Assembly (NCBI RefSeq): GCF_900176035.1
Contig: NZ_FWWT01000012.1
Coordinates: forward strand, 1-64,000
Direction of reading: 5' to 3'
Length of the DNA stretch: 64,000 nucleotides
Source: Desulfonispora thiosulfatigenes DSM 11270
GTDB taxonomy: Bacteria > Bacillota > Peptococcia > Peptococcales > Desulfonisporaceae
In this document: positions 3,611 to 58,651 of the stretch, piece by piece
How the letters are laid out: every line of letters begins with the position of its first letter
Numbering within the stretch: position 1 is the stretch's first letter
Translations under genes and position numbers: made by a program
Notes under the pieces: model-generated
The model's database searches: none
What the model was told of the DNA's origin: nothing
Seen by the model: the letters and a program-made list of their open reading frames with translations, nothing else

Positions 3611-3657
3611 AAAAAACAGACCACCCAGGCTAGATTATATTCTTGGCCCAGGCGGTC
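3611..3657 (-). terminator. Riboswitch expression-platform terminator before pflB
   Basis: Minus-strand hairpin pairing GACCGCCTGGGC (3657-3646) with GCCTGGGTGGTC (3630-3619), using several G-U pairs, followed by TGTTTTTT. Its 5' arm contains the conserved CCGCCTGGGC segment of the ZTP aptamer, so aptamer folding and terminator folding exclude each other. That geometry predicts an ON switch. Confidence 0.85.
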
Positions 3658-3725
3658 GGCTTCAAGTAATCACACTTCACGTGGTTAATTCCACATTTTT
3701 CTCCGCCAGTCATGTGATTACGTCT
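3640..3725 (-). ncRNA. ZTP (pfl motif) riboswitch aptamer
   Basis: The minus-strand RNA has the two conserved halves of the pfl/ZTP motif. The first is a GTAATCAC...GTGATTAC helix enclosing GACTGGCGGA and a GTGGAATTAACCAC hairpin. The second is the downstream CCGCCTGGGCC. ZTP riboswitches sense AICAR triphosphate and were first noted upstream of pfl genes, as here. The 3' half overlaps the terminator arm. This is recognised by eye from consensus and pairing; a covariance search would confirm it. Confidence 0.88.
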
Positions 3726-23175: not shown

Positions 23176-23250
23176 TTAACGGTAACCTGGCTATCATAGC
23201 TTGCGCCTTAGATCCATGGCTTTGCGTCCTACTTTTTCAAATAGTTTGCC
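23176..23250 (-). ncRNA. Cyclic di-GMP-I (GEMM-I) riboswitch aptamer
   Basis: The minus strand reads GGCAAAC..., a GAAA-containing hairpin, GGACGCAAAGCC, GATCTAAGG, a GCTATGATAGC-like helix and GGTTACCG, in the order of the GEMM-I consensus. By alignment with the Vibrio Vc2 aptamer the base equivalent to G20 is G, which favours c-di-GMP over cGAMP-type (A20) variants. It lies upstream of a chemoreceptor gene, a classic target. Identified by motif reading, without covariance scoring. Confidence 0.92.
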
Positions 23251-23393
23251 TTTTTCAATAAATTGTATATAGTAATTATTTGGTATATTTATTATATTTT
23301 GTCGAATTTTCCCTGCATATAGCATTTTAGCATACTTTAAATAAAAATATAATCATCTTTTTTAATTTTACTCTTTACAATTTATAACAAAAA

Positions 23394-50757: not shown

Positions 50758-50940
50758 ATGTAATGTATTAACATTTTTAGAATATATTGAGCCCTATTTA
50801 GTTATTATCAGCAAAAAGAAGAGAGCATGACTTATTTTAAATGAATATAAAAAGTTAACTTCAAGCAATGGAGGATACTCAAAAGAAGCTTTAAATAAAA
50901 AAGAACTCTTCTACAAAAGATTCATGGATTTAAATCAAAA
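50758..50940 (+). pseudogene. Decayed 3' fragment of a LAGLIDADG homing endonuclease gene
   Basis: This stretch aligns closely with the last ~60 codons of the intact endonuclease gene at 57197-57373: shared TAATGTATTAACATT, AGAATATATTGAGCC, ATTTTAAATGAATATAAAA. It has frame-breaking changes, its stop codon is changed to CAA, and no 5' part with the LAGLIDADG motif is present. It is therefore a remnant of a second, related endonuclease gene. Like the intact copy it is followed by a hairpin. Confidence 0.85.
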
Positions 50941-55579: not shown

Positions 55580-56454
55580 TCATGCAACTGATTTTTCAAA
55601 TTCATCAGGAGTCATAAATCCTATACTTCCATGAATTCGATTTCTGTTATACCAGCCTTCTATATATTCAAATAAAGCTAATTTTGCTTGTTCAAAGCTT
55701 AAATATGTTTTTTGGTAAACTTCTTCCTTTTTTAAAATTGAGTGAAAAGATTCTATCACTGCATTATCATAGGGGTTTCCTTTTGCGCTGTAAGAACGTC
55801 TGACATTATATTTATCAGTAGTTTCTAGATAGCTTGAACTAAGGTACTGACTGCCGCGGTCTGTGTGTATTATTACATCCCTTGGAGTTCCTTGACTGAG
55901 CATAGCATTATGTAGTGCATCGGTAACAATTTTCGAGTCCATGGAGCGACTAAATTCATAACCAATAATTTTATGTGAAGCTAAATCCATTATAGAAGCT
56001 AGATAGCACCAGCCATCACTTAAAGTATGAATATAAGTAATATCAGCTACCCATTTCTGATTAATTGTCTGTGCTTTAAAATCTTGTTTTAATAGGTTAG
56101 GTAAATTTTTTTCTTCAGGTTTTGAACTTTGAGGACGAAACTTCTTAAAAACCACAGCAAATAAACCTAAGTTTTTCATAAAACGCCCGATTCGCTTTAA
56201 ACTAGGAGTTAAGTTTAATAAATTTTCTTTTTCATAATTTCTCGTATTTTGGGAGCACCATAACGTCCTTTAGATTGGTCAAACATCCTTTGGATATGCT
56301 CTTTAATTACTTTACTTTCTAATGAACGTTTTGAAGGTTTAACCTGTTTTAAGGCATAAAAAGAACTTCTTGAAAGACCTAAATCCTTACATATACTTTT
56401 AACGGGAAATATTTCTCCTAATTTATTTGCAGTCTCGAATAAGTTAGATCTACT
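55580..56454 (-). pseudogene. IS3-family transposase orfB (DDE integrase), frameshifted
   Basis: The last 199 codons (55580-56179) are intact and encode the rve/DDE core: WVADITYIHT (first Asp), HTDRGSQYLS (second Asp) and NAVIESFHSILKKE (Glu), ending in GSIGFMTPDEFEKSVA. Upstream the frame reads ...GRYGAPKIREIMKK and then shifts at about 56232 into ENLLNLTPSLKRIGRFMKNLG, so the protein is broken. An HTH_21-type N-terminal part is readable up to about 56460. Confidence 0.88.
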
Positions 56455-56732
56455 TACTTTTTGGCTAATATGGCCATAGCCTTTTTTAATATTTCGTTCT
56501 CTTCTCGAAGTTTTGCCATTTCCTTTTGAAATGCTTTTATTTCCTGAGGAGTTACGGATTCATCAGTATCAACTTGTATAGGTGTAAGTTGCTTTACCCA
56601 TCTTTGGATTGTTGCAGCTGGGACGCCATATTCGCCTTCAAGACTTGCATAACTACGTTCCGCCTAATTGTAGATATCAACAATCATCTGCTTAAACTCT
56701 TGATTATATCTACTACTTTTACTTTTTTTCAT
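56454..56732 (-). pseudogene. IS3-family transposase orfA with a premature stop
   Basis: ATG at 56732 after a GGACGTG site. The frame reads MKKSKSSRYNQEFKQMIVDIYN, then TAG where a Gln codon is expected, then AERSYASLEGEYGVPAATIQRWV and a leucine-zipper-like QKEMAKLREENEILKKAMAILAKK to the TAA at 56454. A normal IS3 HTH protein but for the nonsense codon. Confidence 0.85.
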
Positions 56733-56953
56733 AATAGACACGTCCTTTCAAATATTTATATTATATCTCACTTTTCGTGTCTATGTTTTTATACTAACAC
56801 TAAAAGGCTTCTTGTCACTAGTATAGACGAATGTCCAGAACATATTAATGATCGTATTTAGTTTACTCACTGGGAAATAATTTTTTATATGTAATATTAA
56901 AATATATATAGTTAATACTAATATTAAGACATTTATTTTTCGAGGTACTTATC

Positions 56954-57373
56954 ATGAATATTCTCTCCCCAATTGAAATAGCTTATATTGCTGGCATCAT
57001 TGATGGTGAAGGAACTATAACCTTAACTACGCATAAAAAGGGCTGTTATCCTTCTCCAACTATTACCGTTGCATCTTCAGATTATGAATTAATTTCTTGG
57101 TTGAAAAAAACTATAAATGCTGGTCAAATTATTAAAAAGAAAAATTATAATCCTGATAAACACAAGGATTCTTGGTCATATGTCCTTAAATATAATAATG
57201 TATTAACATTGTTAGAATATATTGAGCCATATTTAGTTATTGTAAACAAAAAGAAAAGAGCAGAACTTATTTTAAATGAATATAAAAAGTTAACACCTAG
57301 AAATGGAAGATATTCAGAAGAAACTTTAAATCAAAAAGGACTTTTTTATAAAAAATTTATGGAATTAAATTAA
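56954..57373 (+). CDS. LAGLIDADG homing endonuclease (single-motif)
   Basis: 139 aa, intact. The N-terminal IAYIAGIIDGEGTITL is a LAGLIDADG helix with the catalytic acidic residue in DGEG; with only one motif it should act as a homodimer. SWLKKTINAGQIIKKKN and SWSYVLKYNNVLTLLEYIEPYLVIVNKKKRAEL follow the family pattern. GAGGT precedes the ATG. It lies outside, downstream of and convergent with the intron-containing ssrA gene, sharing the terminator at 57372-57404. A decayed relative is at 50758-50940. Its target is probably, but not provably, the ssrA intron site. Confidence 0.9.
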   Translation: MNILSPIEIAYIAGIIDGEGTITLTTHKKGCYPSPTITVASSDYELISWLKKTINAGQIIKKKNYNPDKHKDSWSYVLKYNNVLTLLEYIEPYLVIVNKKKRAELILNEYKKLTPRNGRYSEETLNQKGLFYKKFMELN

Positions 57374-57404
57374 AAAGTACTTAGCCAATGCTAAGTACTT
57401 TTTT
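57372..57404. terminator. Bidirectional terminator shared by ssrA and the endonuclease gene
   Basis: AAAAAGTACTTAGC-CAAT-GCTAAGTACTTTTTT. It starts at the endonuclease stop codon and ends two bases from the CCA end of tmRNA. Confidence 0.9.
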
Positions 57405-57406
57405 AA

Positions 57407-58032
57407 TGGTGGAGGTGAGGGGACGTATTAATCCTATATTTCTATAGGTACTGACTATATCTTTAGCTCTTTGAGCTATCTGGCGTATTATGAAAGCTAT
57501 ATTCTTTTAACCTTTTAACCTTTTAACTTTCATCCTAGTACTCCATGTTCTTATGAATTTAGGAGCCTATAAGTCGATACAGAGCTGTAAGCTTTCGCCT
57601 CATACTCCTCGGTATTGCCATATCCATATAGGACTTAGGTTTCACCGATCAAGCCAAATTTTCCACTATCTGTCACCAGATAGGGCGACTCTATTTGAAT
57701 CGAACCCCTGTCCGAAGGACCAGCCACTTGAGCATCTACGAGTGTAGTTTGTGTTTTAGATTTCGCCTTTTATACTCCCACAAACAGGATTATAAAAGAC
57801 TAGCTATGTTAGTTTCCCCATTAAGCTACACAGCACTCACTTAAGGGTAGCCCGCTAAATTGGCCCCCTATCCTACACCGCAGGCGCAGTAGGTAGGAGG
57901 TTAACTGCTACTAGGCAGCTAAAGCGTAATCGTTTTTAGCATTTATAACTTGTGCACCGTTTAACGAGTAAATGCAATCTCGACTCGCTTCTCAAGCCAC
58001 CGAACATCCCCCGTCGAAGCCATTACACCCCC
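57407..58032 (-). ncRNA. ssrA: tmRNA (ssrA) interrupted by a group I intron
   Basis: Minus strand. The 5' end GGGGGTG (58032-58026) pairs with CACCTCC before the encoded ACCA (57417-57407) to form the acceptor stem. The tag frame runs from a GCA resume codon and ends in KNDYALAA-stop (likely tag AQVINAKNDYALAA). The T-arm is split: the 5' exon ends at AGGGGTTCGAT (57699), and the 3' exon TCCCCT starts at 57423; joined they give a perfect 5-bp T-stem with a TTCGATT loop. It follows smpB on the same strand. Without splicing the tRNA-like domain could not form. Confidence 0.95.
57424..57698 (-). other. Group I intron in the tmRNA T-loop
   Basis: 275 nt, no internal ORF. P1 is readable: exon CGAU plus intron UC pairs with the guide GAGUCG (57691-57686), placing a U-G wobble exactly at the 5' splice site. 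The last intron base (57424) is G, as required. AAAGATATAGTC (57464-57453) is the conserved P7/J8-7-type block, and GGCAATACCGAGG is P4-like. Group I introns at this tmRNA site have been reported from some Firmicutes; subgroup and activity need modelling. Confidence 0.92.
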
Positions 58033-58042
58033 ATGTTGGATG

Positions 58043-58513
58043 CTAAAAACTCGAAAGTCTTCTATCCTTCATGGCTTTGTCAATATCTCTTTGGGCAGAT
58101 TTCTTAGCGGCATCTTCTCGCTTGTCATATAGTTTTTTACCTTTTGCTAAGGCTATTTTCACTTTAGCTATACCTCGAGTAAAATAAACTTGTAAGGGCA
58201 CTAAAGTTAGACCTTCTTGCTTAGTTTGACCTAAGAGCCTCATTATTTCTTTTTTATGCATTAATAGTTTTCGTCTGCGTAAAGGTTCTACATTATAACG
58301 ATTACCTTGTTCATAAGGACTAATATGCATATTAGAAATAAACATCTCACCATCAATAACTTCGGCATAACTATCTTTTAAGTTTGCTTTACCTTGTCTT
58401 AAAGACTTAACCTCGGTTCCTTTTAGCTCCATACCAGCTTCAAAGGTTTCTAAAATATGATAGTCATGTCTTGCTTTTCTATTGTCTATAACAACTTTGC
58501 CATTACTCATCAT
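58043..58513 (-). CDS. smpB: SsrA-binding protein
   Basis: About 156 aa from the ATG at 58513, preceded by AAAGGT; the open frame extends 16 codons further to 58561, making an atypical N-terminus. SmpB motifs: [69 protein letters not shown], and a basic C-terminal tail ([22 protein letters not shown]) that enters the ribosomal A site. Binds tmRNA, encoded 11 bp downstream. Confidence 0.96.
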
Positions 58514-58651
58514 TATCACAACCTTTGAGCCTAAGGATAAAACAAACCCTGTACTAGCCAAAATCAGAGCTGTCAGGGTTTATAATTTTAACATAATATA
58601 TTGTGCTAAACAAGATGCTATACTTGAATTATACCAAATTTCTTACAAATG

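Follow-up and report, generated by a model that had tools for sequence, protein, structure and literature searches.

The 64,000-nucleotide stretch of the Desulfonispora thiosulfatigenes DSM 11270 genome analyzed here (the window) carries a group I intron in the T-loop of ssrA, the tmRNA gene, and a free-standing LAGLIDADG endonuclease gene just beyond the end of ssrA. We consider it likely that the two form a collaborative homing pair, with cleavage, the exact cleavage site, and co-transfer all being inferred. What the sequences establish is the linkage of gene and intron, the near-exclusive pairing of intact endonuclease genes with intron-bearing ssrA, selection on the protein, and a conserved catalytic residue in a fold predicted by model; they also establish that decayed copies of the gene exist in related lineages and that relatives of it reside inside ssrA introns.

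An intact endonuclease gene outside the ssrA intron

The endonuclease gene (56954..57373, plus strand) is an intact ORF of 139 codons which starts at an ATG with GAGGT upstream. Its product scored 29.7 bits against Pfam LAGLIDADG_1 (PF00961; cut-off 23.1) and 24.0 bits against LAGLIDADG_3 (PF14528; cut-off 22.5), and its sequence matches include I-MsoI and I-AniI; an NCBIfam profile search of the window returned nothing. The AlphaFold2 model of the protein (pLDDT 94.4) has a predicted alpha-beta-beta-alpha-beta-beta-alpha core whose nearest structures are I-CreI, I-MsoI, and I-CvuI, with I-CreI the best solved-structure match (E 3e-8, TM about 0.77). The single motif reads IAGIIDGEG, and the catalytic acid at its end, E19, does not vary among the 47 intact relatives. 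Over 29 pairs of homologues, limited to those with dS < 2, the median dN/dS was 0.10, indicating purifying selection. By motif, profiles, fold, and catalytic residue, we identify the protein as a LAGLIDADG homing endonuclease; the sequence features are observed directly, the fold is a model's prediction, and site-specific DNA cleavage is inferred.

The neighboring ssrA, including its intron, spans 57407..58032 on the minus strand (RF00023, 170.9 bits), with its ends read from the acceptor stem GGGGGUG/CACCUCC and the terminal CCA, and smpB, encoding the tmRNA partner protein, lies upstream of it at 58043..58534, also on the minus strand (Pfam SmpB, 212 bits). Because of the intron, ARAGORN called no tmRNA in the window; Rfam did detect ssrA.

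The intron (57424..57698, minus strand) is 275 nt long, has no ORF of its own, and sits in the T-loop at what is position 7 in a published scheme (PMC11915505). We identified it by RF00028, by splice-site reading, and by an alignment of 19 intron sequences. Its RF00028 score (45.4 bits, E 5.7e-10) is slightly below the curated cut-off of 50, but the group I core is kept across the 19 introns, with compensatory changes in 39 of the 54 predicted pairs. Splice sites were read by the U.G and terminal-G rule, which places the end of the 5' exon at TTCGAT and the start of the 3' exon at TCCCCT; the 5' splice site then has its U.G pair, and the last nucleotide of the intron is G. With core, U.G pair, and terminal G all present, this is a tmRNA T-loop group I intron, whose self-splicing is inferred. 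The presumed cleavage site would have its left half in the 5' exon T-arm GACAGGGGTTCGAT (57699..57712, minus strand) and its right half, together with the acceptor end, in the 3' exon TCCCCTCACCTCCACCA (57407..57423, minus strand). Exons similar to this T-arm flank the intron in relatives, and without the intron the T-arm would read GGACAGGGGTTCGATTCCCCTCACC.

The stop of the endonuclease gene (57373) and the CCA end of ssrA (57407) are 33 bp apart, and this space contains one 14-bp hairpin with T-runs on either side (57372..57405; RNA fold z of −4.3 on the plus strand and −6.8 on the minus strand), a terminator common to both genes and directed toward both strands. A sequence-only reading of the window had claimed that a complete single-motif LAGLIDADG gene lies 33 bp past the tmRNA CCA end on the opposite strand, that it is outside the ssrA intron, and that one hairpin terminator serves both genes. 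Each of these claims held, the first by ORF, Pfam, Rfam, and coordinates, the second by the positions of gene and intron, and the third by the stem, the T-runs, and the fold z. Being outside the intron and on the strand opposite to ssrA, the gene does not meet the classical criterion for an intron-encoded endonuclease; it does show one feature expected of a collaborative homing system, a free-standing gene near an ORF-less intron.

Two findings go beyond the sequence-only reading: the same arrangement recurs in dozens of other genomes, and the window holds a second, decayed copy of the endonuclease gene 6 kb away (50759-50935, plus strand). This fragment retains the C-terminal 59 codons (residues 81-139) at 76% identity, with one TGA, and is followed by a hairpin with a T-run. 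No ssrA piece was recognized at the fragment, which could be an older copy displaced from ssrA by inserted DNA, as in Clostridium relatives. The window also contains an IS3-type insertion sequence immediately upstream of the intact gene (55580-56750; rve integrase domain, ORFs apparently split) and, on the minus strand, a c-di-GMP-I riboswitch (23178-23260) and a ZTP riboswitch (3639-3723).

Intact cellular homologues are found almost exclusively with intron-bearing ssrA

We searched for homologues of the endonuclease gene without reference to ssrA, and then sought ssrA and its T-loop around the cellular and the best viral loci. The search covered the window's own genome, 46 genomes of its class, 399 genomes of its phylum, phage and plasmid records, about 85,000 species genomes (which gave 74 loci), and viral contigs (from which we took the best 80 of at least 478 relatives); the plasmid records searched held no relative. 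We tabulated 79 loci, 62 of them with an intact gene. These include a few near-identical genomes, so our counts are of genomes and not of independent events.

Intron-bearing ssrA accompanied 57 of the 62 intact cellular homologues (92%), in 51 cases at the same locus and in 6 elsewhere in the same genome. The window and 48 other loci combine an intact gene outside the intron with an intron-bearing ssrA in the same locus. Introns occur in only 883 of 97,179 catalogued ssrA genes (PMC11915505). We rejected chance as the cause of the linkage.

The six loci whose intron-bearing ssrA is elsewhere (L047, L049, L053, L055, L056, and L061) were considered as counterexamples, there being no ssrA at the locus, and were rejected as such when genome searches gave an intron-bearing ssrA in each, for some of them apparently 9-15 kb off on the same contig. 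In several of the six, the endonuclease gene still adjoins an ssrA 3' end that has been displaced, which likely reflects genomic islands inserted between ssrA and the gene, an inference from sequence. More broadly, probable islands at the ssrA 3' end part ssrA from the endonuclease gene in L047, L048, L051, L053, L055, and L061, and in these loci the displaced ssrA 3' terminus and terminator still adjoin the gene.

One of the 62 intact copies (L073) lies at a contig border, leaving its intron state undetermined, and four are found with an intronless ssrA, whose T-arm is altered in every case. Two of these are Clostridium manihotivorum (L048) and C. folliculivorans (L051), both with the T-loop TTCGACA; they probably represent one event, in which an island seems to have put CGGGTTCGACACCCG in place of the T-arm. 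The other two have the loops GTGCAAC (L104) and TTCAATC (L105). In none of the 61 determinable cellular cases did an intact gene adjoin a TTCGAT loop that was uninterrupted. Broken copies are found both with the intron (e.g., L005, L077, L092, L100, and L110) and without it (L039, L040, L044, L095, and L111), and the copies beside uninterrupted TTCGAT loops (L040, L044, and L111) are all broken. At L109 (911-1499), a complete intronless ssrA adjoins a broken endonuclease gene and the displaced 3' fragment of an intron-bearing ssrA.

The state of the T-loop site therefore co-varies with the state of the endonuclease gene, which is indirect evidence on the target. The altered T-arms of the four intronless carriers may reflect resistance to cleavage, but this is a weak point on its own. 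We rejected avoidance of TTCGAT in intronless carriers as proof of the target because it rests on only three independent cellular events against a background near 50%; in the class sample, 7 of 15 parsed intronless ssrA genes (about half) have a loop other than TTCGAT.

The association holds in samples drawn without regard to the endonuclease

Among the 46 genomes of the window's class, traces of the endonuclease gene were present in 4 of about 7 with an ssrA intron versus 0 of about 30 without one (p = 0.0005), the four comprising two intact and two broken copies. In this sample, Rfam detected ssrA in most genomes and the intron was called by match span; an eighth candidate was cut by a contig end. 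In the phylum sample (399 genomes), an intron was recognized by pattern in about 15, and all three intact endonuclease genes adjoin an intron-bearing ssrA. The hits of the loose intron pattern used over these genomes were mostly due to chance or to tRNAs and were read by eye, and a stricter pattern still matched some intronless ssrA genes. A further 400 genomes from the class of G426 (Bacilli) yielded 9 intron-bearing ssrA genes, two with an intact convergent endonuclease gene and one with a fragment.

Within one Bacillaceae family (18 genomes), the gene was present in 8 of 11 genomes with intron-bearing ssrA versus 0 of 7 with intronless ssrA (p = 0.004), the seven being scored as lacking it by profile. 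The family displays a range of states that we read as stages of a homing cycle: four genomes have the intron with an intact gene, four the intron with a decaying gene, three the intron alone, and seven neither. The Bacillaceae locus L288 is intronless with a canonical loop, and only the first codons of the endonuclease gene are left, with a nonsense change (MKD*EAA). This remnant is bounded as the gene is in L278, by a terminator of that kind and by the same following gene, and the endonuclease gene was therefore once present there and then died. The intron could have been lost after the death of the gene or could never have arrived; the order is unresolved. Over the unbiased samples, roughly one in four intron-bearing ssrA genes has an intact endonuclease gene, and most have none.

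The gene occupies several positions and remains tied to ssrA

In Clostridia and Bacilli loci, including the window, the endonuclease gene is convergent with and downstream of ssrA, mostly 40-60 bp from the exon. It is downstream and codirectional in four proteobacterial MAGs (L087, L091, L101, and L102) and in L097. In two further MAGs (L106 and L107) it lies inside the ssrA intron, in sense orientation, past the 5' strand of P7 (the P7.1 region). In the tree, L106 and L107 fall with L104 and L097 in the starred clade which also holds the window, L045, and L037, and the outside and inside forms have therefore interchanged.

Phage relatives add further positions. Three viral contigs (L198, L199, and L202) carry a phage-borne ssrA with a T-loop intron and a member of the endonuclease family inside that intron, in antisense. 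We had considered them as free-standing phage pairs and rejected this reading when the 3' half of the intron was found beyond the gene. In L200 and L201, ssrA is permuted (two-piece) and the relative lies in its spacer; L201 is a distant copy (36% identity) with an uninterrupted TTCGATT loop. A relative adjoins an intronless phage ssrA in L203, L205, and phage Lacusarx, and some other phage relatives lie among tRNA genes or elsewhere. In phage Lacusarx (L195, 74324-75212), the relative is a LAGLIDADG gene which overlaps the phage ssrA and is recorded as an "HNH endonuclease," a label that looks wrong. Orientation and position thus vary among convergent, codirectional, and in-intron forms, and the tie to ssrA stays.

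We weighed two explanations against these data which do not invoke homing by the present-day gene. One is that the gene is a relic, an intron-encoded endonuclease which was ejected into the flank, or ended up there, and is now neutral or repurposed; in its favor are the in-intron relatives (L106, L107, and viral L198, L199, and L202) and the many decaying copies. Against this stand the dN/dS of about 0.1, the invariant active site, and the long-term recurrence of the gene outside the intron in Clostridia and Bacilli, and we regard a relic as very unlikely. If the protein were instead a maturase which helps the tmRNA intron splice in trans, this would explain its retention with the intron and fit both the co-occurrence and the purifying selection; LAGLIDADG maturases do exist, and I-AniI is among the sequence matches. 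However, most ssrA introns have no such gene adjoining, the catalytic acid never varies in the 47 relatives, four intact cellular copies persist with intronless ssrA, and phage copies are found at intronless ssrA. A maturase role is, in our judgment, also very improbable.

Endonuclease and intron co-diverge

Across 37 loci, distances between endonuclease genes and distances between introns were correlated (r 0.87), and with distance in SmpB, our host-gene reference, held constant, a correlation remained (partial Mantel r 0.49, permutation p 0.0005). This co-divergence is compatible with joint movement, yet much or most of it reflects shared vertical descent. Together with the occupied and empty relatives in the Bacillaceae family, it leaves co-transfer a possibility that we infer.

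The closest rival to collaborative homing is plain "intronless" homing, in which the endonuclease gene spreads itself via ssrA. The intron would then be an independent element which by coincidence blocks the same conserved site and is for that reason the commonest resistant state, and joint movement is not needed. The two differ mainly on whether intron and gene travel together. In favor of the rival are the relatives whose ssrA has no intron but an altered T-arm (L048, L051, L104, and L105) and those at intronless phage ssrA (L203, L205, and L200), where a changed sequence would give resistance. Against it, 92% of intact cellular copies are with an intron, gene and intron co-diverge beyond the host gene, and in the convergent loci the gene is mostly so close to the exon that a repair tract spanning the site would usually include gene and intron alike. 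We therefore consider plain intronless homing unlikely.

Discussion

Collaborative homing remains the explanation we favor, and the simplest. Under this model, the endonuclease would act as a homodimer and cut the T-arm DNA of uninterrupted ssrA where the intron inserts or close beside it. That site would be split by the intron, so that a cell with both intron and gene would be immune. On encountering an intronless ssrA allele through DNA transfer or phage, intron and gene would be copied together by repair from the donor, less than 0.1 kb separating the gene from the exon. The T-arm sequence forms an inverted repeat on the two sides of the 7-nt loop in which the intron inserts, which could suit a homodimeric enzyme, though this is inference and no more than a possibility.

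The sequence-only reading had proposed collaborative homing, and the proposal is supported, although indirectly, by co-occurrence in relatives, with cleavage inferred. It had asked whether presence of the gene tracks the intron in relatives, and it does, in the class sample, among the 62 intact homologues, and in the Bacillaceae family. It had named as refuting an intact gene beside an intronless, uncut ssrA. The four cellular intronless cases all have a changed T-arm, so carriers meet the expectation of resistance in the cellular cases; the one distant phage copy beside an uninterrupted TTCGATT (L201) is an exception, and the cognate site itself is inferred. The relatives found within ssrA introns (two MAGs, three viral contigs) also lend support to its alternative, the capture of an endonuclease that had yet to invade the intron.

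Several observations count against collaborative homing: the four intact intronless cellular carriers, L201, and the majority of intron-bearing ssrA genes that lack an intact endonuclease gene. The L048/L051 pair is a particular difficulty, since its dN/dS of 0.046 indicates purifying selection despite an intronless ssrA and some other reason for retention of the gene is needed.

A bolder reading, which we hold no more firmly than its contrary, is that ssrA is home to widespread dedicated homing endonucleases whose main form is free-standing beside an ORF-less chromosomal intron, and which, moving among outside, in-intron, and phage-borne positions, drive the mobility of many tmRNA introns unseen. 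If so, the stages of mobile-intron birth would be observable in living relatives. How introns acquire endonucleases is an open question, and collaborative homing, the proposed intermediate, was known from a few phages. With the arrangement present on chromosomes in about 50 genomes, in inside and outside forms and in states from intact to decayed, the model becomes testable in cultivable bacteria. An apparent addiction is also suggested, as a cell with an active enzyme would pay a price for losing the intron from ssrA.

Comparison with known systems

T-loop ssrA introns, LAGLIDADG genes inside them, and collaborative homing in phages are all known; the free-standing chromosomal partner of an ssrA intron is apparently new, a likely conclusion within the open-access literature searched. 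We found no report there of such a partner, subscription papers (including an original phage report and the first ssrA intron report) being outside our scope.

As proteins, I-CreI and I-MsoI, which are homodimeric intron-encoded LAGLIDADG endonucleases, have the single motif and the predicted fold in common with the window protein, at about 20% identity. Their genes are located within rRNA introns of algal chloroplasts. PHROG 5046 is homologous to the window protein (E 3e-19); it and its phage relatives are recorded as "HNH endonuclease," a label that misfits, as the sequence matches LAGLIDADG. Several of these phage relatives are at phage-borne ssrA, and several are with intronless or permuted ssrA or in tRNA clusters.

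As an arrangement, the nearest precedent is collaborative (trans) homing in phages, known from the cyanophage psbA intron with its free-standing endonuclease and from T3/T7-like cases (PMC3984707), with ICP1 phage as a further example (PMC10448857). Unlike these, the window pair is chromosomal, concerns an RNA gene (ssrA), uses a LAGLIDADG enzyme, and recurs across many genera; in the phage systems a matching target site is established, whereas here the target is inferred. The other precedent is the tmRNA T-loop intron with an internal LAGLIDADG gene, found in 36 of 883 intron forms (PMC11915505). It shares the position 7 site and the enzyme superfamily with the window, and L106 and L107, members of the window's endonuclease family, fit this form. 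In the window and most of its relatives, by contrast, the gene is outside ssrA and usually on the other strand, where counts of genes inside introns would miss it, and a gene which is often next door may be why so few ssrA introns (about 4%) carry an endonuclease.
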